A DNA stretch of 64,000 nt, taken from assembly GCF_017355935.1 (NCBI RefSeq), contig NZ_JAFIQT010000001.1, forward strand, positions 806,001-870,000, written 5' to 3'. Positions 53,009 to 63,606 of the stretch are shown piece by piece; position 1 is the stretch's first letter, and the number at the start of each line of letters is the position of its first letter. A model generated the notes under the pieces. That model worked only from the letters and a program-made list of their open reading frames with translations, did no database searches and was not told where the DNA came from. The stretch is from Telluribacter humicola (GTDB lineage Bacteria > Bacteroidota > Bacteroidia > Cytophagales > Spirosomataceae). A program made the translations under genes and the position numbers.

Positions 53009-53929
53009 CTACTTCAGCATCGGAAACAAACGCTTTAGATCAGCCTCACTAGGGCGGGCGCCGTATTCGCATACTTCAAAGGCTTCGGCGTGTTGTACCT
53101 GAGCAGCTTTGTCCTTACCGTACCACTTTTCCAGTGAAGCCCGTACTTCGGGTGTGATCTTGGTGGCGCGGGTTTCGCCCAGCCATTTTTCATGATCCGC
53201 TTTGTTGGCAGGTACCTGATCCAGAAAGCCGCCGATCCAGGGGAGCCACTCGTAAAACTGCGACTGGTGGGCATCCATGGCGTGAATCTTCTGCGCGTAC
53301 ACGGGCGTGATATCAACGGCTACATCGGGACGGAACGGGTTAGGCCGCTGGAAGTGATCCTGGAAGTACAGGAAGATCGGGTTCTTCTTCAACGGTGGTG
53401 TCTCGGGAGCAACATTCGGAACGGCTACCATATAGGCTGCATCCTGGACGAGTACACCTGTATACCGGTGGTCGGGGTGGTAGTCGTTGGGACGGGGGGC
53501 AATCACTACGTCGGCATTCCACTCACGGATCTTCTTGATGATCTGCAGGCGGGTTTTCAGGTCCGGCAGGAGCTGGCCGTCGTGATTGTCGAGTACATCG
53601 TAGGTAACGCCAAAGCGCTTACCGGCTTCCTTGGCTTCGGCCAGTCGGCGTTTGGCCAGAGAGGCTCCTTTGTCGGTCTGGTGGCCGGCATCGCCGTTGG
53701 TGACGGATACAAACTTGACCGCGTGGCCCATCGAGGACAGGAGCGCGGCTGTACCGCCGCCTTTGATGTCGCAGTCGTCAGGGTGCGCGCCGATCATGAT
53801 GATGCGGAGTTTTTCTGAAGCGTTCTGAGCCATCACTACGGCTCCGGTACTGAACACAAAAAGGAGTAACAGCATACTTCTGAGCAGTGTGTTTGCCCTC
53901 AGTGTCAAAAGTTGATTACATGTAAACAT
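53009..53929 (-). CDS. Exported PIG-L family deacetylase
   Basis: A 306-residue LmbE/PIG-L protein with a signal peptide (SMLLLLFVFSTGAVVMAQ). Zinc motif 'IGAHPDDCDIKGGG', then 'VTNGDAGHQ' and 'PRPNDYHPDHRYTG' with the third His. Family members deacetylate N-acetylglucosamine-type sugars such as those on mycothiol or bacillithiol precursors; this exported form more likely acts on extracellular glycans or other N-acetyl sugars. Confidence 0.88.
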   Translation of the reverse strand: MFTCNQLLTLRANTLLRSMLLLLFVFSTGAVVMAQNASEKLRIIMIGAHPDDCDIKGGGTAALLSSMGHAVKFVSVTNGDAGHQTDKGASLAKRRLAEAKEAGKRFGVTYDVLDNHDGQLLPDLKTRLQIIKKIREWNADVVIAPRPNDYHPDHRYTGVLVQDAAYMVAVPNVAPETPPLKKNPIFLYFQDHFQRPNPFRPDVAVDITPVYAQKIHAMDAHQSQFYEWLPWIGGFLDQVPANKADHEKWLGETRATKITPEVRASLEKWYGKDKAAQVQHAEAFEVCEYGARPSEADLKRLFPMLK

Positions 53930-53986
53930 ACAGGGTTAGGTTTAGGAGTATTAAATAAAGGGTAATCTCGTGTGAAATAATGAGTT

Positions 53987-55012
53987 TTAGTTGACATCTC
54001 TGGCCATGAATGTTCTGGCCTTGGCTTTTATTTTATCCGCTTCACAGCCGTTGGCTAGGTGGCCGCAGTTGCCGGTGAGCTCAAGTACTTCTGCTTTGAG
54101 GTCGTGGGCCACCTGAATAGCCGATAGTGGGTTGACCATGTGGTCCTGTAAAGCTACTATTACGAGTGCTTTGGCCTTAGTATCCCGAATGGCCTTTGCC
54201 CGGTCACGGCCTCTAAACACATCGTGCCCCAGCATAGCCCGTAGCTGTGAAGCCCAGTTGTAGGGGTCGTTGTTTTTGACGTATTCGGCTTCTTTGGCCT
54301 GCAGGTACTTCTTAAACTCCGGCTCGGTGGGGAGCTTGGTGTAGTAGTACTCGGGTGAAGTAAGATGCATTTCGTGCAGAGCCCCGACGGTCTTCATGGC
54401 GTCAGTGCTGTACTTGCCGCGTTCCAGTACGGCCAGTTGGGTGCCCCATAGAAACCGATCATGGGCTGACTGATCGGGAGTACCTACGATGGTTACCACC
54501 TTATCCATCATGTTGGGGTAGGTAAAGAGCCACTCAAAGGTCTGCATACCGCCCATAGATATACCGGCTACGGCGTAGAGATGAGGGAGCCTCAGGTGCT
54601 TCGTGACCAGCTCATACTCGGCCCTCACCATGTCCCGGATCGAAAACTGGGGGAACTGTGCCCCCGGCTGAGCCTTGCTGTTGGAGGGCGAAGAGGAAAC
54701 GCCGTTACCCAGCGCATCTACCACGATGGTGAAGAAGCGGGTACTATCAGCTACCTGATCGGGAGCCGCCATAAATAGCTTGTCTACGCTCTTTCCTGTA
54801 AACCAGGTAGGTACCAGGATAGTATTGGAGCGATTGGCATTGAGCTTCCCGGCGGTACGGTAGCCGAGGCGGCAGTTTTTGATCACCTGCCCATTTTCAA
54901 GTTTAAAATCACCTAAATTATAATAGCGTTGCTGAGGCAGCCGTTGCTGCGCAAAGGTGAAGTGAGTAATTAGTAATGTAACAAGTAACAGGCAACAGGA
55001 CTTCAGACGCAT
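53987..55012 (-). CDS. Exported MetX-like alpha/beta hydrolase
   Basis: A 341-residue alpha/beta protein of the homoserine O-acetyltransferase (MetX)-like branch, with signal peptide (SCCLLLVTLLITHFTFAQ). The nucleophile lies in 'AVAGISMGGMQTFEWL', the acid in 'ALQDHMVNPLSA' and the His in 'GNCGHLANGCE'. True MetX is cytosolic, so this copy is probably a hydrolase. It lies 57 bp upstream of the PIG-L gene on the same strand, so the two may be co-transcribed. Confidence 0.82.
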   Translation of the reverse strand: MRLKSCCLLLVTLLITHFTFAQQRLPQQRYYNLGDFKLENGQVIKNCRLGYRTAGKLNANRSNTILVPTWFTGKSVDKLFMAAPDQVADSTRFFTIVVDALGNGVSSSPSNSKAQPGAQFPQFSIRDMVRAEYELVTKHLRLPHLYAVAGISMGGMQTFEWLFTYPNMMDKVVTIVGTPDQSAHDRFLWGTQLAVLERGKYSTDAMKTVGALHEMHLTSPEYYYTKLPTEPEFKKYLQAKEAEYVKNNDPYNWASQLRAMLGHDVFRGRDRAKAIRDTKAKALVIVALQDHMVNPLSAIQVAHDLKAEVLELTGNCGHLANGCEADKIKAKARTFMARDVN

Positions 55013-55102: not shown

Positions 55103-55130
55103 ACAGGAGGCCCCATGCGGGGCCTCCTGT
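55103..55130 (-). terminator. Terminator of the Hint-domain gene
   Basis: 12-bp GC-rich arms (55103-55114, 55119-55130) with a 4-nt loop, followed on the minus strand by TTTTGTT. It starts 24 bp after the stop. Confidence 0.85.
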
Positions 55131-55154: not shown

Positions 55155-55751
55155 TTATTTGTCCAGTACCACTACATTCTCTACCAGATAAGAGCCGGTG
55201 TCGGTGATGAGGGTATAGCCGGTATCCAATTTACCTGCGTTAGCCTGTATCAGTCCCACTTTCCAGGCCGAAACAGCTCCTGTGGCCGGCTCGTAGCAAT
55301 ATAGTACATCTCCTTTTATCAACTCTTCCACCCTTTTACGGCCAGTTGCAGTCTGGACGGGGTGGCAGGGCGTCGCCTCCAGCAGCAGAGCCGGTACCAG
55401 CGGCCAGCTGTTGCGACTCGCGGTCAGTTCATCCACCGGGCGCAGGTACAGTTGGGTAAGGGCAGTGCCCATATTTTCCAGTTTATCTACCTGCCGCACC
55501 AGGGTGGTCGTAATCTGCTTGTTGGCGTAGGCTATCACGGTATCACCGGCTTGTACGGTGGAGATGGATTTGGTACTTCCGTCCGCCATTTTGACCGACA
55601 CATGCTCCGGGAAACAGTACAAATCCGGCTTTGGCAACGCCTCAGACGCTGTATCCGAAGGCATGAGCCGGAGCGCCTGGGGCTGCTCTACCTGAGCCCA
55701 TGCACTCAGGTAAAGCAATACGATCAGCAGGGTAAGGGTAAAGGTACGCAT
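55155..55751 (-). CDS. Secreted stand-alone Hint (hedgehog/intein) domain protein
   Basis: A 198-residue exported protein with signal peptide (TFTLTLLIVLLYLSAWAQ). From C46 the sequence follows a Hint domain: block A 'CFPEHVSVKMADGSTKSI' then 'VQAGDTVIAY', block B 'ATPCHPVQT' with T127 and H130, 'IKGDVLYCY', and an end like block F 'YTLITDTGSYLVENVVV'. The final His-Asn of splicing inteins is missing; the protein ends 'VVVLDK', so any reaction would be N-terminal cleavage rather than splicing. Only about 26 residues precede C46 after the signal. Role unknown. Confidence 0.75.
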   Translation of the reverse strand: MRTFTLTLLIVLLYLSAWAQVEQPQALRLMPSDTASEALPKPDLYCFPEHVSVKMADGSTKSISTVQAGDTVIAYANKQITTTLVRQVDKLENMGTALTQLYLRPVDELTASRNSWPLVPALLLEATPCHPVQTATGRKRVEELIKGDVLYCYEPATGAVSAWKVGLIQANAGKLDTGYTLITDTGSYLVENVVVLDK

Positions 55752-55782: not shown

Positions 55783-56877
55783 TTATGCTTTTGAGAGCCT
55801 TAAGTAGGCCTTACTTACCATACTTGGTACCGCCGCCGCCGCTATCAGGGCCAGTCCGCTAAACAGCAGGATCACTGGGTTGGCAAAGAAAGTACCGGTA
55901 GAAAGAATTCCAAGGATAAGCAGGGTAGAGAATGGCAGCGAGAAGGCCAGCATTAGTACCGCCAGTTCCATGTCAAAGGTACGTTTTTCCTTAGGCAGTG
56001 CCTTGGCTTCTTCCTTGGCATGGAAGGCCGAGATATGCGCCAGTGGCCAGAAACTGGCCGAGCTGAGAGGTACCACGATCGCCAGCAGCATCATAGAGGG
56101 CTCCGTAATGTGGAACACGTAGATCATGCCCGAGCTGATAACCATGGTAATACCGGCCCGGAAAAGCAGGATGGAGCTAACCAGCCCCTTCTTACCATCT
56201 TTCAGCTGTACCGCCAGTCCGATGAACATCAGTACCAGGGGCGTCATCAGGGCGCTGGTCTTATCAAAGATATCCGTCATGATCACAGGCAGGGTGGTGT
56301 AGTTAACACCTATGCTCAATAATACAATAGCTATAATGATCAGGAGGTTGATGGGTTCCTGAACCATGCTCAGCAGCAGGCTCTTGATCTTTCCTCCCGT
56401 GTTGGTTTCTTCGTCCGTACTGTTCTTGAGGAACATATTCATGGCCAGCAGGTAGAGCGTAATCAGCACAAAAAACTTATTACCTACGTCGGCCAGGGCA
56501 GCAATAGCAAGGCTCTTTTCACCCAGAAACTCGGCTATAAACGGGAAACAGGAGAGCCCGGGAGCCAGAGAGGGAATGAGCATCATCAGGGTGCGGCCTG
56601 TTGAACTGTTTTTTTCAATTCCGAACATAGAAAAAGCAAGCGGTCCGGAAAAGTACATCAGGAAGTTAAACACCAACGTAACCAGGGGAATGATGAAAAG
56701 GGTGGAATCCATTTCAATCTTCATCAGCGAGATAAAGATCGTCGAGGGCAGCGCCACCGAAAGTACAATCTCCTTGATACCGTTAGTCTGTTCTTTATTC
56801 TTAAACTTTGATCTGAGTACCAGACCCAAAGCAATCAGTAGCAATAAAGTTATGGTTTTCTGTAAGGCATCGCTCAT
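55783..56877 (-). CDS. AEC-family (auxin efflux carrier-like) transporter
   Basis: A 364-residue inner-membrane protein with about ten helices in two halves. 'LSVALPSTIFISLMKIEM' and 'LMMLIPSLAPGLSCF' match the AEC fold's Pro-rich helix breaks. AEC carriers move organic acids, amino acids or, in plants, auxin. It lies 31 bp upstream of the Hint gene and downstream of the aminotransferase terminator on the same strand. Confidence 0.78.
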   Translation of the reverse strand: MSDALQKTITLLLLIALGLVLRSKFKNKEQTNGIKEIVLSVALPSTIFISLMKIEMDSTLFIIPLVTLVFNFLMYFSGPLAFSMFGIEKNSSTGRTLMMLIPSLAPGLSCFPFIAEFLGEKSLAIAALADVGNKFFVLITLYLLAMNMFLKNSTDEETNTGGKIKSLLLSMVQEPINLLIIIAIVLLSIGVNYTTLPVIMTDIFDKTSALMTPLVLMFIGLAVQLKDGKKGLVSSILLFRAGITMVISSGMIYVFHITEPSMMLLAIVVPLSSASFWPLAHISAFHAKEEAKALPKEKRTFDMELAVLMLAFSLPFSTLLILGILSTGTFFANPVILLFSGLALIAAAAVPSMVSKAYLRLSKA

Positions 56878-57029: not shown

Positions 57030-58214
57030 TTAGCTTAGTTGGCCCAGGGCACCAACAAACATCTTCATCTCGTCCATGGTACCGATACTTACGCGGCACC
57101 AGGGCTTGCCCAGAATTTCAAAAGCTCTCACACCTACGCCCTTTGCTGACATTTTTGTAAGCAATTCCTTACCTGATACACCTACCGGGAAAATGACGAA
57201 GTTGGTATAAGACGGGATGTACTTGTAGCCCATCTTGTCCAGGTTGTCGTACAGGTACAGCTTGGCTTCGTGGTTGAGCTTGCGGGTGCTGGTCTGGAAG
57301 TTGGCATCGTCAAGGCTGGCGTTGGCTGCCGCAATGGACGTATACGCGATACCCATACCACCGCGGGTGATTTTCTGGATCTGATCCAGCGTAGATGGCA
57401 GCGCCGCGATATATCCTACACGCAGACCGGCCATACCCATGATCTTGGAGAAGGTACGGGCCACGATCACATTCTTCTTCTTAGTCAGCAGCGATACCAT
57501 ACTCTCAGTATTGGCACCTACGGCCAGCTCCAGGTACGCCTCATCTACGAATACAGGTACTTTCTCTGATACGCGTGAGCAGAAGTCGAGCAGGTCTTTA
57601 CCGGCCGTGATGCTACCTACGGGGTTGTTAGGGTTACACACGTACACCAGTTTAGTATCTTTATCGATGGCAGCTTCCATCGCTTTCAGGTCGTGTGACC
57701 AGTCTTCCTTACAGGGGATAGCCTTCCAGGTAGCACCGGTTGACTTGGCTACGTTGATCAGCGACATATAAGTTGGATCAGCCGATACGACGTTACCTCC
57801 GTTGGCAAACAGGACCAGGGCTACTTTCTCCAGCAGGTCTGACGAACCCGGACCCATCATGATATGGTCTGGCGTCACGCCTTCTTTCTTGGCTATTTTA
57901 GCCATCAGGTCAGTCAGTTCTTTCCAGGCGTAGCGGTTACCACCTTCTACCGACTCAGCCACCGCCTTACGTGCCGACATAGGCGGTCCGTAGGGATTCT
58001 CGTTGGCGTTGAGTTTTGCTACAATCTTAGGAGCCACTTTTTCGTCCAGAAAGTACTCCCGTACCATCGGGCTGCGGAAGATCCGGTTCTCAGGATCCAG
58101 GTTGAGGGGCATATTAGAAAAGGCGCCCATGCTCAAGTGTGGTGCTGCCACTAAGCCACCCAGTGTCATAAGGCCTGACTTCAACAGATTACGGCGATCT
58201 ATTTTCTGATCCAT
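57030..58214 (-). CDS. Tat-exported PLP-dependent aminotransferase (class I/II, HisC-like)
   Basis: A 394-residue fold-type I aminotransferase. The N-terminus is a twin-arginine signal (DRRNLLKSG, then LMTLGGLVAAP). The core resembles histidinol-phosphate aminotransferase: 'KLNANENPYGPP', 'GPGSSDLLEKVAL', 'YVCNPNNPVGS' and the PLP lysine in 'TFSKIMGMAGLRVGY'. A PLP enzyme exported folded by Tat is unusual; its periplasmic substrate is unknown. It stands in its own unit between two hairpins. Confidence 0.82.
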   Translation of the reverse strand: MDQKIDRRNLLKSGLMTLGGLVAAPHLSMGAFSNMPLNLDPENRIFRSPMVREYFLDEKVAPKIVAKLNANENPYGPPMSARKAVAESVEGGNRYAWKELTDLMAKIAKKEGVTPDHIMMGPGSSDLLEKVALVLFANGGNVVSADPTYMSLINVAKSTGATWKAIPCKEDWSHDLKAMEAAIDKDTKLVYVCNPNNPVGSITAGKDLLDFCSRVSEKVPVFVDEAYLELAVGANTESMVSLLTKKKNVIVARTFSKIMGMAGLRVGYIAALPSTLDQIQKITRGGMGIAYTSIAAANASLDDANFQTSTRKLNHEAKLYLYDNLDKMGYKYIPSYTNFVIFPVGVSGKELLTKMSAKGVGVRAFEILGKPWCRVSIGTMDEMKMFVGALGQLS

Positions 58215-58372: not shown

Positions 58373-58855
58373 TTACTTAGCCTGGATCTGCGAGAATCGG
58401 GTGAAGGCAACTCCTTTATGAGTGCCCGACCAGGAGATCTTTACCGTGTTGCCGGCCTTGGGTGCTGTTAAGCCCAGCTCAGCCCAGGTTTTTTCCAGGG
58501 TTACTTCACCGCTGGCATTGGAGGTAACCTCGCCCAGGGGAGCACCCGTACGGAGCGTAATCTTCATCGGAATGTTAGCTACCGGGATGGAATCTATTCC
58601 TTTGGTATGGTCAAGGATGTTAGTCTTATCCAGTTCGAGCAGACGTGCCTTCAGGACTACCTTGGCATCGGCAGCCGAATAGGCTACCGTAGGCTCAGCC
58701 GCCAGGGGAGCACCGAAGGGAGCTCCTACGATATCTACCAGTACCGGGGCCACTACCCGATCCACAAAGGGGTCTTCTACTTTGCAGGAAGTAACAGCCA
58801 GAGCGATGGCAAGGGCACAACCCAGGGTCGAAAGGTATGATATGGTCTTTTTCAT
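58373..58855 (-). CDS. Hypothetical lipoprotein of the sus operon
   Basis: A 160-residue lipoprotein; the lipobox is 'AVTSC' with the Cys at about residue 24. The mature part is beta-rich with a conserved-looking 'RTGAPLGEVTSNASGEVTL' block like an Ig/transthyretin-type sheet. It is the third gene of the operon, 48 bp after susD, where surface glycan-binding or unknown lipoproteins often sit. I do not recognise a family. Confidence 0.65.
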   Translation of the reverse strand: MKKTISYLSTLGCALAIALAVTSCKVEDPFVDRVVAPVLVDIVGAPFGAPLAAEPTVAYSAADAKVVLKARLLELDKTNILDHTKGIDSIPVANIPMKITLRTGAPLGEVTSNASGEVTLEKTWAELGLTAPKAGNTVKISWSGTHKGVAFTRFSQIQAK

Positions 58856-58903: not shown

Positions 58904-60379
58904 TTACTCTGCCCACCATAGCTTGGTCTTCATGTCATTGGCACCACCGTTGAGTGTAATGCCGGCTTCAACATTGGCCTGGTTCAGGGAGAATTCAGAG
59001 TTGGGATATACAAAGCGGGTAGGTAGTACACCATCGTTGACAAATACAGCCCGGCTATCAGCTGGCGGGAATACCGGGAAACCGGTGCGACGCTTCTCGG
59101 TCCAGGCTTCGATGCCCTGGCCGAACAGAGCGATCCACTTCTGCTCCAGTACCTTCTCTTTGGTCACAGCGCCTACTTTGGTTAGGTAGTCGGCTGGTAC
59201 GGTCAGGCTATACTGGTTGAATGAAGCCTCGATTCCCTTCTCGAAGTAAGCCTTGGCATCGCCGGTAATGTCGCCATCCAGGGCTGCTTCGGCCAGGATG
59301 AAGTTCAACTCAGCGAAGGTCATAACTACCTCAGGCGCGTCGGCCCGTACAAAGTAGTTGCCGATGGTAGAACTAGTAGCCAGATAATTGGTAGCGACCG
59401 CGTCGGGCAGGCCATTTGGATGTCCCTGGTATTTTCCTTCCTTATTAGGATTGGCATAAACCGTGATCCGGGTATCACCCAGCGCATTCATCTTGTCTGC
59501 CAGCGTAGAGCTGATGTTCCAGTCGGTCCGGCCGTCCTGTACCATTACCTGGTTCCACTCATTGTTGCTTGGTAGTACGGTAGAGGTTTTCAGTGCGGCA
59601 TTATCGGCGTTGCTGGTAAATATTGGGTACTTAACAGGATCACCCAAAATCTCAGCCATGATAGCGCGTGACTCAGCGGGTTTTTTACCTGCCTGACGGT
59701 TAGCAAGGCGCAGCCGCAGGGAGTTGGCAAACTTCTTCCACTTCATGATATCGCCGCCGTACAGAATATCACCCGAAATAGCAGGTCCCGAAGTACTCAG
59801 CTTTTCGTTCGCCAGCTTCAGGTCGTTTAGCATACCTGCATACACCTGCTCCATAGAGTCGTACTTCGGTGTATAGATAGGTGATTCGCTGGTACCGGAC
59901 AGCGCCTCCGAATAAGGAATAGAGCCGTACATATCCGTCAGCAGTGAGAATACCCAGGTACGCATCACCAGCGCTACACCTTCGTAGTTGGCATTAGGGC
60001 TTTTTCCATTAGGAGCTGACTGTACAATAATGCGCTGGAAGTTGAGCAAGCCATCGTTAAAGAAGCCCTTCCAGTTATTAGCGACCAGCGCCGGCGATAC
60101 CTCGTAGTTATCACCCTCGTTAGAGTAAATGTTACGGGTAAAGTGCTGTACGTACAGCTCTGCCGCATCAATATTGATACGCTCGAAGCGGGTGCGGTGT
60201 CCCCAGTAACGATCCACAGAAGCCTCAATGCCGGTAGGAAGCAGGTACTGCGCTCCGATAGCCGTAGGGCTGTTGGGGTCGGTGTTCATGGCGTCGAAGT
60301 TGTCAGTACAGCTGCTGATCGTCAGCAGACTGGCCAGCGCCATGGCCCATAGGGTTTTATAGTTAGTTAGGCTTTTCAT
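58904..60379 (-). CDS. SusD/RagB-family nutrient-binding lipoprotein
   Basis: A 491-residue SusD-like lipoprotein of the shorter SusD-like_2 type. The lipobox is 'TISSC' at about residue 24. 'DAMNTDPNSPTAIGAQYLLP' and the later 'EVVMTFAELNFILAEAAL' and 'WIALFGQGIEAWTEKRRTG' are typical. It acts as the surface lid of the SusC transporter, 50 bp downstream of susC on the same transcript. The nutrient (sugar or peptide) is unknown. Confidence 0.92.
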   Translation of the reverse strand: MKSLTNYKTLWAMALASLLTISSCTDNFDAMNTDPNSPTAIGAQYLLPTGIEASVDRYWGHRTRFERINIDAAELYVQHFTRNIYSNEGDNYEVSPALVANNWKGFFNDGLLNFQRIIVQSAPNGKSPNANYEGVALVMRTWVFSLLTDMYGSIPYSEALSGTSESPIYTPKYDSMEQVYAGMLNDLKLANEKLSTSGPAISGDILYGGDIMKWKKFANSLRLRLANRQAGKKPAESRAIMAEILGDPVKYPIFTSNADNAALKTSTVLPSNNEWNQVMVQDGRTDWNISSTLADKMNALGDTRITVYANPNKEGKYQGHPNGLPDAVATNYLATSSTIGNYFVRADAPEVVMTFAELNFILAEAALDGDITGDAKAYFEKGIEASFNQYSLTVPADYLTKVGAVTKEKVLEQKWIALFGQGIEAWTEKRRTGFPVFPPADSRAVFVNDGVLPTRFVYPNSEFSLNQANVEAGITLNGGANDMKTKLWWAE

Positions 60380-60429: not shown

Positions 60430-63400
60430 TTAGAAAGAGAAGGAGAGGTTCATACCCAGGCTGCGTGAGCTGGGGAGTTCACCGTAGCCAAATCCCTGCG
60501 CGTTGCCACCCTTGGAGTCAAATTCAGGGTCTACATGTGGCGTATTCTTGAAGATCATCAGGACGTTGCGGCCTACGATAGAGACTTTCGCTGACTGTAA
60601 ATGGACCTTTTTGAGTAGAGCCGCCGGTATGTTGTAGCCCAGTGAAAGCTCACGCAGCTTGACGTAGCTGGCATCAAAGATGGCTGCTTCGTGGTAGTTA
60701 CGTGGGTTGTTGTAGGCATACAGCTGATTCGCAGTAACAATAATATCATTAGGTACGTAGCTCACATTTCCATCAGCACCGGTAATCGCACGCACCCCTT
60801 TTCCGATTACACCTTCCTCACGGCCCAGGGCGGTTTCGGCGTACTGACCCGTCCAGCGACCGGTACCGGTACCTTCATCATAAATGTCGCCACCCATGCG
60901 TGCATCTATCAGAGCCGTCAGGGTTAGTCCTTTAAAGTTGAAAGTGTTTAGGAAACCGCCAGTCCAGTCGGGCTGGATATTACCAATAATCTGCTGAGTA
61001 GCCTGACGCAGGGGAAGACCGTTGTCGCCGTAGATGACCTGTCCGTCGGGAGAACGCTGAAAAGCAACCCCGTACAGGGTACCATAAGGCTGACCAACTC
61101 GGGCTTCGGAGGTCATACCCCGCTGAGAAGCCAGAATGTAGGTAGTCAGACCTTCGGCCAGTTCCTCTACTTTGTTGCGGTTGCGGGCGTAGTTTACAGA
61201 TACGTCCCAGGTAAAGCCGTTGTCCAGCTTAAGAGGAGTACCTGACAGGCTGATCTCAATTCCTTTGTTGGTGATCTGTCCGGCGTTCAGGATACGACGG
61301 TCGTAGCCGCTAGACTTAGAGATTTCGACACCCAGGATCTGGTTGCGGGTTGTCTGTTCGTAGTATGTTACATCCAGACCTACTTTTCCACGCAGGAAGC
61401 GCATATCCGCACCAAACTCAAGTCCGGTAGTAATTTCAGGCTTCAGACTGGAGTTAGCAATAGAGACATTTTCGGCAAACTTAGGTAGTGAGCCATTCCA
61501 CGAGCCGGATGAGGTAAATGTCTGGGCCAGCTGGTACGGATCGGCATCATTACCTACCTGAGCATAGCTGGCGCGTACCTTACCAAAGGTCAGGATATCG
61601 CTCTGTACATCGAGCAGGTCCGTCACCACTGCACTCACCGAAGCCGATGGGTAGAAGTACGAGCGGGCGTTGCTGGGGAGGGTACTCGACCAGTCGTTGC
61701 GGGCAGTCAGGTCCAGGAACAGCATGTTGCGCCAGCCAAAGTTAGCCGCAGCAAACAAGCTCTGTACTTTTGATTTTTCAATCTTGCTTTCGATGGTGTT
61801 ACGGCTGGGCACTGAGTTACCCGCGTTATAAATACCGTCTACCACCATTTCGCCTACGTTGAAGTAGTTACGCTTGTAGTAGTTGGTCCGGTCGATGCCA
61901 CCCACCTGGATGTTCGTGCTGATATCCGGAATAAGCTCTTTATTAAAGGTCAGGATAAAGTCATGGTTAGTTTCCTGCCGGCGTAGTATTTCTTCGTTGA
62001 AGCTACCGGGCGTACGATTCCCGTTTCTTACGCGATCAAAGTTGGTTACGTTGATGCGGGTATCACTCCACACATCCGTACCCGAGCGCACCATCAGGCT
62101 GAGCGAAGGCAGGATCTTGTAGTTAAGGGCGATGTTACCCAACAGGCGGTCTTTGTCGTTGCCATAGGGCAACTTGCGGGCTGTGTAGTACGGATTCGTA
62201 AAGAAGGTATGCTGCCAGTTAGGTGGATCAGTGTCGGCAGGCTTGCCGGCTACTGCGCGCTGGATATGTACATCCTGGTAGTCTTCGTAGTTACGGATCT
62301 GCTCCCACGACGTGTGGCGGTGAGCCCAGATAAACTGCTGGCCCGAAGTAAAGCTACGGTTGGTAGACCCCGACTTGATGTATTCGCCGGCCATGGTTAC
62401 CGTTAGGTTCTTAGCCAGGTTATAGCCGGAGTTAATCCGGAAGTTGGTACGGTGGAAGTCGTTGTAGTACATAATCCCTTTCTGATCCACGCGGGCTAGC
62501 GACATACGGAAGAAGCCTTTGTCGTTGCCACCTGAAAGGGCAAGGCTGTTGTTGACGGTCTGGCCGGTAGCCCAGTACTCTTCCCAGTTGTTAGGCTGAG
62601 GCGTAAGCGGAGCTACTTCGGTACCTGACCACCAGTGGCGAACCAGGCGGCCGTCCATAGGGGCACCCCAGCTTTCGTCAGTACCAGCCGATCCGGCTAA
62701 AGGGTAGCGGGCGTCATATACGGCACGGTATTGCTGGGTCTGCTGAGGGTCAGTGATCGAGCCGCTCCATCCGTCATTGTACCAGGTGCGATAGCCACTG
62801 CCACCTCCGTAGGTATTCTGGAAGTCAGGCTTAATCCAGGGGCGCTCAAAGGTCACATTGGAGTTGAAGTTAATACCCAGTCCCTTAGTACCCTGTCCGG
62901 TTTTGGTGGTGATAAGGATAACTCCGTTGGCCGCGCGCGATCCGTAAAGAGCCGCTGCGTTGGGCCCCTTCAGTACCGACATTTCCTTGATGTCGTCAGG
63001 GTTGATTTCGGAGATACCGCCACCCATCTGGTTGCTGCCGCTCTGCTGCATGGGTACCCCGTCAATAACGACCAGGGGCTGGTTGTTTCCTGAAACCGAC
63101 GACGCACCACGTATTTGTATGGTAGAGCCACTACCGGGACCACCGTTGGATTGGATGCGCAGACCGGCGATCTTACCGGAAAGTCCGTTGGCTACGTTGG
63201 TAGATCGTGATTCGGTAAGGCTGCTTCCTTTAATTTCCTGTACGGTATAACCCAAGGCTTTTTTCTCACGCTCAATACCGAAGGCCGTAACAACTACCTC
63301 GGCCAGCTGGCGGGTGTCAGCACTCAGTTTGATGTCAAATTGGGTCTTGCTTCCAATAGGTACTTCCTGCGACAGGTACCCTACAAATGAAAAAACGAGT

Positions 63401-63606
63401 ATGCCGTCGTCAGGGACGGTAATTTTGAAGTTTCCATCAGAGTCAGTGTTGGTACCGACATTGGTGCCCTTATAGATAATAGAAGCACCCGGAAGACCGA
63501 GTCCATCCTCGGCGGCTGTAATCTTACCAGTAAGCTGGCGCACCTGGGCCATGCTCAATGTAGTGCAAAGACAGCCCCATATCAAAACGAGTATAGTTTT
63601 TCTCAT
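60430..63606 (-). CDS. SusC/RagA-family TonB-linked outer membrane transporter
   Basis: A 1058-residue SusC-like protein with signal peptide (LVLIWGCLCTTLSMAQ). Order: carboxypeptidase-D regulatory-like domain (about 22-100), plug domain (about 110-230, 'GLSGKIAGLRIQSNGG', 'VVIDGVPMQQ', 'SVLKGPNAAALYGSRAANG') and a 22-strand barrel ending 'LGMNLSFSF'. It imports a nutrient captured by the adjacent SusD lipoprotein using TonB energy. There is no adjacent sigma/anti-sigma pair or glycosidase, so the substrate is open. Confidence 0.94.
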   Translation of the reverse strand: MRKTILVLIWGCLCTTLSMAQVRQLTGKITAAEDGLGLPGASIIYKGTNVGTNTDSDGNFKITVPDDGILVFSFVGYLSQEVPIGSKTQFDIKLSADTRQLAEVVVTAFGIEREKKALGYTVQEIKGSSLTESRSTNVANGLSGKIAGLRIQSNGGPGSGSTIQIRGASSVSGNNQPLVVIDGVPMQQSGSNQMGGGISEINPDDIKEMSVLKGPNAAALYGSRAANGVILITTKTGQGTKGLGINFNSNVTFERPWIKPDFQNTYGGGSGYRTWYNDGWSGSITDPQQTQQYRAVYDARYPLAGSAGTDESWGAPMDGRLVRHWWSGTEVAPLTPQPNNWEEYWATGQTVNNSLALSGGNDKGFFRMSLARVDQKGIMYYNDFHRTNFRINSGYNLAKNLTVTMAGEYIKSGSTNRSFTSGQQFIWAHRHTSWEQIRNYEDYQDVHIQRAVAGKPADTDPPNWQHTFFTNPYYTARKLPYGNDKDRLLGNIALNYKILPSLSLMVRSGTDVWSDTRINVTNFDRVRNGNRTPGSFNEEILRRQETNHDFILTFNKELIPDISTNIQVGGIDRTNYYKRNYFNVGEMVVDGIYNAGNSVPSRNTIESKIEKSKVQSLFAAANFGWRNMLFLDLTARNDWSSTLPSNARSYFYPSASVSAVVTDLLDVQSDILTFGKVRASYAQVGNDADPYQLAQTFTSSGSWNGSLPKFAENVSIANSSLKPEITTGLEFGADMRFLRGKVGLDVTYYEQTTRNQILGVEISKSSGYDRRILNAGQITNKGIEISLSGTPLKLDNGFTWDVSVNYARNRNKVEELAEGLTTYILASQRGMTSEARVGQPYGTLYGVAFQRSPDGQVIYGDNGLPLRQATQQIIGNIQPDWTGGFLNTFNFKGLTLTALIDARMGGDIYDEGTGTGRWTGQYAETALGREEGVIGKGVRAITGADGNVSYVPNDIIVTANQLYAYNNPRNYHEAAIFDASYVKLRELSLGYNIPAALLKKVHLQSAKVSIVGRNVLMIFKNTPHVDPEFDSKGGNAQGFGYGELPSSRSLGMNLSFSF

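Follow-up and report, generated by a model that had tools for sequence, protein, structure and literature searches.

In Hint domains, a thioester at a Cys releases the upstream part of the protein, and splicing needs His-Asn. Hedgehog/Hog proteins (PF01079) share with the longer relatives of the protein described here a signal-like start, an N-terminal domain and a C-terminal Hint domain that starts from Cys-Phe, includes TxxH and has no His-Asn. They differ in that the N-terminal domain of the long relatives (here the N-domain) has no credible match in Pfam or the PDB and belongs to a bacterial cassette with an amine oxidase, and in that our protein lacks the N-domain, which is present in 80 of 80 long relatives. 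Our protein and the long relatives aligned with it end at the Hint core, which leaves no room for a sterol-recognition region. The sections of Buerglin 2008 drawn on here (PMC2362128) set out a subgroup of secreted bacterial proteins, in species that include Stigmatella, Myxococcus, Reinekea, Serratia and Yersinia, that fall outside the intein, Hog and BIL groups and have a C-terminal Hint domain, in some cases a signal peptide, and two conserved cysteines upstream of the Hint domain. The long relatives are similar to the subgroup in being bacterial, with signal peptides in some and a C-terminal Hint domain; however, an alignment of 20 long-form N-domains has no conserved Cys to set against the pair in that account. 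BIL domains of types A and B are, in the part of PMC5874633 used here, inserted in variable regions and cleave at the N- or C-terminus. They too are bacterial, non-mobile Hint domains, but our protein has neither a C-flank nor His-Asn. The pretoxin HINT of polymorphic toxins is placed directly before a C-terminal toxin in the portion of PMC3482391 relevant here, and what it has in common with our protein is the exported Hint autopeptidase type; in our protein, zero residues follow the Hint domain. Inteins are also unlike our protein, which ends in LDK and has no terminal His-Asn, C-extein or C-extein nucleophile. None of the matches listed for the open full-text literature (subscription papers lie outside it) described the cassette or the family, as judged by title and the start of the abstract.

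The window, a 64,000 nucleotide stretch of the Telluribacter humicola genome (NZ_JAFIQT010000001.1, positions 806,001 to 870,000), includes a stand-alone Hint open reading frame (ORF) of 198 aa that begins with ATG and was recognised by profile searches (55155..55751, minus strand, as are all features of the window described below). Residues 1–20 (55692..55751) resemble by eye a Sec-type signal peptide with a site between AWA and Q. They are followed by a short tail, residues 21–45 (55617..55691), that occupies the place of the N-domain and linker of the long relatives. The Hint domain itself, residues 46–198 (55158..55616), has block A beginning at C46 (codon at 55614..55616), which from the sequence and its relatives is the putative nucleophile, and a block B TxxH in the form T127-P-C-H130 (55362..55373). 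Downstream is an intrinsic terminator-like hairpin (55103..55130) with a 12 bp stem that includes 9 GC pairs and a T-rich tail. The region contains four terminator-like sites, compared with 3.0 (sd 1.7) in shuffles, and the stems of the other three are 5–6 pairs. The initial annotation had proposed an ORF with a signal peptide-like start, a Hint domain with C46 and a TxxH that includes H130, no terminal His-Asn and a terminator of its own. Each of these was borne out, the terminator by the longest stem among the four.

The Hint assignment is better than chance (PF01079, E=2.6e-6), though its 27.6 bits are just below the curated cut-off of 29.7; Vint was matched at E=8e-4. When the whole genome was searched with the Pfam Hint profile, the window locus was the sole match (E=1.3e-5, also below the cut-off). 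An AlphaFold2 model built from two sequences had a mean pLDDT of 43.8 and a pTM of 0.27, values too low to show the horseshoe fold. Membership of the Hint superfamily follows from homology to the long forms: PF01079 was the best Pfam match in five of the six that were scanned, and the cut-off was passed in five of the six. The long-form profile matched the hedgehog Hint domain 1at0 over the whole domain (E=0.005), the second half of the Mycobacterium tuberculosis RecA intein 3ifj (E=3.6e-5) and, weakly, a solved BIL domain (E=0.014). Its best PDB matches, 6y75 and 6tmm (E about 1.3e-6), cover block A only and are filed as ADP-ribosyltransferase. When the short-family profile was used to query the PDB, two Tako8 repeat-protein entries came first and were discarded, as their scores are summed over repeats (single-repeat E≥33), and inteins followed at E=0.002 and weaker. 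The long-form query also returned at least eight loci in viral contigs, which by eye are Hint domains within unrelated phage-type proteins and were set aside, and the short-form query returned no loci from viral contigs.

A survey of 200 genomes of the window's GTDB family (E≤1e-3) found a Hint relative in 117, with one match in each, and no Hint match in the remaining 83. By open-frame length, 80 of the 117 are long and 37, including that of the window, are short. The long form has a signal-like start, an N-domain of approximately 150 aa and the Hint domain at the C-terminus, an order like that of hedgehog. On its own, the N-domain profile matched exactly the 80 long genomes and 0/37 of the short ones, always in an open frame of 303–396 aa adjoining the Hint match. 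In none of the 37 short genomes was the Hint match interrupted by an internal stop.

The long and short forms diverge at the active site. Among 66 distinct long proteins (45 from the 80 long genomes of the family and 21 from other families), [FYIV]-Cys-Phe and TxxHP were found in 66/66 and HN at the C-terminal end in 0/66. Of the 37 short proteins of the family, 36 were examined: two have C46, both from the window's genus, which is represented by just these two genomes, and H130 is kept in 32 and T127 in 28. The initial annotation had staked its assignment on conservation of both C46 and H130 in homologs; among the short proteins, this holds for H130 and fails for C46. In genus g32 (n=29), both the residue counts and the profile alignment indicate an ungapped substitution at the C46 place, to Tyr in 24 proteins and Phe in five. 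Two residues past the lost Cys there is a Ser in 24/29 and a Cys in 3/29, so a shifted nucleophile is possible in this genus. The C46 place is occupied by Phe in g24 and by His in three further genera. Four short proteins are without H130, and in one of them, L045, block A is missing too. In another family, L109 (3909-4517, plus strand) and L111 (3815-4498, plus strand) are short Hint paralogs that lack the Cys, although their genomes still encode intact long Hint proteins (L110 and L112); here the pattern has arisen independently. Besides these two, the order has a short protein, L125, that keeps the Cys; it is in a contig of 3,137 bases and has a different upstream part.

Of the 94 Hint domains placed in a maximum-likelihood tree, 25 are short forms of the family, and these make up one clade (support 100/100) that is nested among long forms, with the long forms of g16 as its sister (95/83). 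The window's genus branches outside the other short forms, at a support of only 95/66. From this placement, the long form is likely to be ancestral and C46 in the window protein a retained residue. Comparison of the two species of the window's genus gave a dN/dS of 0.137 for the whole gene (dS 0.81), with 0.104 for the Hint part and 0.238 over 22 codons of the tail. Among six g32 pairs that lack C46, dN/dS was 0.167 (dS 0.26), 0.077 (1.66), 0.083 (2.73) and 0.061 (3.50), with no value for the other two, and of these only the first pair is unsaturated. The proteins in the 0.167 and 0.061 pairs are the three from g32 that carry a Cys at position 48. At a dN/dS of about 0.1, the Hint domain is, as judged from these comparisons, still under purifying selection.

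As only a tail of approximately 25 residues is left and that tail is the faster-changing part, we take the window protein, with moderate confidence, to be a retired Hint domain that binds or serves as a scaffold within a nutrient-uptake run. Put more fully, and with a probability of roughly 60%, it would be the truncated and probably decommissioned Hint domain of a hedgehog-like autoprocessing protein that has lost its cargo and now acts as a non-cleaving exported module. The initial annotation had left three options, namely peptide release, attachment of a nucleophile and an inactive scaffold. Taking all short proteins together, the last is favoured over the first two, given the loss of C46 in short proteins against its invariance in long ones, and the loss of the cargo.

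The window protein may nevertheless still cleave, because neither species of its genus has lost C46, T127, H130 or block A. Its Hint domain would then undergo an N-to-S acyl shift at C46 and hydrolyse, freeing a peptide of about 25 residues. We consider this possible, if unlikely. The invariance of the Cys and TxxH in the long relatives argues for it. However, the peptide that would be freed is less constrained than the domain that would free it (0.24 against 0.10) and differs in length by three residues between the two species. The residues at −1 and +1 of C46 also change, from Y-C-F in the window protein to H-C-L in the sister species, and C46 is absent from the other 34 of the 36 short proteins. 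The persistence of H130 in most forms that have lost C46 does sit oddly with a dead active site.

The N-domain travels with an amine oxidase. At E≤1e-150, the oxidase was found in 68 of the 80 long genomes, in 0/37 short ones and in one of the 83 genomes without Hint, which is 71% complete; this search and that of the phylum scored no more than a few top candidates in each genome. Of the long genomes, 12 are without it: 11 belong to genus g31, and in the twelfth, G193, a fragment sits at the end of a contig. In a sample of 395 genomes from the phylum, the N-domain was present in 10 and the oxidase in nine, all of them among those 10. Full scoring was carried out for 13 genomes, including seven short and three g31 genomes. 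Five of the seven short ones, the window genome among them, had no oxidase match at E≤1e-10, and the remaining two had weak matches (8e-11 and 5e-17). Two of the three g31 genomes had no match and one had a weaker relative (3.6e-36). The tight association of N-domain and oxidase, together with their joint absence from short genomes, suggests that they act together, although the link is not absolute, as the long form of g31 occurs with no oxidase.

The oxidase is upstream of the long Hint gene, on the same strand and within 3 kb, in 44 of 54 long loci, and in 42/54 the aminotransferase is also there. In four more of the 54 the oxidase is on the other strand within 2 kb, and in six it is not found in the stretch covered. 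At all seven long loci examined from outside the order, oxidase, aminotransferase and Hint lie in one run. One of the oxidases was classified as Pfam Amino_oxidase (E=2.1e-54), and no NCBIfam match to the amine oxidase was found at E≤1e-20. Both oxidase and aminotransferase begin with motifs that by eye are twin-arginine-like. This ancestral oxidase-aminotransferase-Hint cassette, scattered across Bacteroidota, is the larger find. It couples an amine oxidase, presumably exported, to a Hint protein of hedgehog-like type, and makes the role of bacterial hedgehog-like proteins testable genetically.

The short forms have other neighbours. In the window, the Hint ORF is the last gene of a same-strand run that extends from 63606 down to 55155 and includes a SusC-like TonB-dependent receptor (60430..63606), a SusD-like protein (58904..60379), a small protein that by eye is lipoprotein-like and has no Pfam match (58373..58855), a HisC-like PLP aminotransferase with a Tat-like start, again by eye (57030..58214), and a transporter-like protein (55783..56877). 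The initial annotation had placed an AEC transporter beside the Hint gene, and a transporter-like gene does adjoin it; the AEC label is weak, with Pfam Mem_trans at E=0.035 and 13.1 bits, below the cut-off of 25.7. The next genes on the same strand, downstream of the Hint gene (53009-55012), encode a MetX/hydrolase-like protein and a PIG-L/BshB1-like deacetylase; in the sister species (L108) the Hint gene is likewise followed by relatives of both, with an additional ORF intervening. Upstream of the short Hint gene, all 22 of the family's loci examined have a transporter-like gene and an aminotransferase gene within 3 kb, and the transporter is the next gene upstream in 20/22 and within 1.3 kb in 22/22. 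The aminotransferase of the window falls in a clade that includes a SusCD-linked copy in G031. There, a Hint-free SusCD run like the window's adjoins an aminotransferase-long Hint pair without the oxidase. A reading in which the transporter has taken over the oxidase's position was rejected, since the transporter is part of a distinct SusCD-linked run, which is Hint-free in G031. In G024, an aminotransferase of the SusCD-linked clade is followed by the transporter, a second aminotransferase from outside the clade and the short Hint gene, which is what a transitional state could look like.

Architectures, residue losses, gene order, phylogeny and selection were all read from sequence, and from them we infer the following order of losses, in keeping with a decommissioned Hint domain. 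The ancestral long protein was presumably exported and worked alongside an aminotransferase and an FAD amine oxidase, likewise exported. Its Hint domain would very probably have carried out an N-to-S acyl shift at [FYIV]-Cys, giving a thioester at the Cys, and attack by water or another nucleophile would have released the N-domain, with no splicing expected without His-Asn. Both the oxidase and the N-domain would then have disappeared from the ancestor of the short clade, and the Hint gene would have remained at the end of a SusCD-aminotransferase-transporter run. Once the window's genus had split off, the nucleophile appears to have been replaced by Tyr, Phe or His, and cleavage would have been lost with it, so that the short Hint protein most likely now has a binding or scaffold function, exported but no longer cleaving. 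The C46 of the window's genus would be the retained ancestral residue, able at most to shed the tail of approximately 25 residues. A self-processing domain would thus have been decommissioned in steps, losing first its cargo and partner enzyme and then, in most descendants, its nucleophile, while the domain was kept by selection. A bolder version, which is speculative and rather unlikely, would make the long form an undescribed Bacteroidota counterpart of hedgehog processing, in which the thioester of an exported N-domain-Hint protein passes the N-domain to an amine with the oxidase and aminotransferase as near-obligate partners, and the window lineage lost cargo and oxidase together and had its Hint domain retired to a non-catalytic role. 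The amine as attacker is suggested solely by the neighbouring genes.

That the short gene is instead functionless and on its way out is very unlikely. It has lost the N-domain and the partner oxidase, and in 34/36 short proteins the nucleophile; four have also lost H130, with L045 lacking block A as well, and 83 of the 200 genomes have no match at all. Decay of this kind should be set against Hint matches free of internal stops in all 37 short genomes, dN/dS of 0.10–0.17 in the two unsaturated pairs, and a transporter and aminotransferase kept within 3 kb at every one of the 22 loci. A pretoxin-type Hint domain, as a remnant of a polymorphic toxin, or an intein or BIL domain is extremely improbable, as a weak PT-HINT match to the window protein (E=0.035) and the weak BIL match of the long-form profile are outweighed by the missing C-terminal extein, toxin and His-Asn and by a single match per genome, in a single clade with stable neighbours.

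Several further arrangements were seen. In genus g31, L157 (2165-9849) contains a SusC-SusD-aminotransferase-AEC-like-lipoprotein-like run without Hint, next to an oxidase-less pair of aminotransferase and long Hint genes. In G649, two tandem aminotransferase genes lie between the oxidase and long Hint genes (L143, 1944-4386). In family f12, L126 (2844-4544), L127 (4031-5836) and L128 (4065-5816) encode proteins of 566–601 aa with a signal-like start and an intact Hint domain (Cys, TPNH), and as their N-terminal region differs from that of the long form, they represent another hedgehog-like bacterial architecture.
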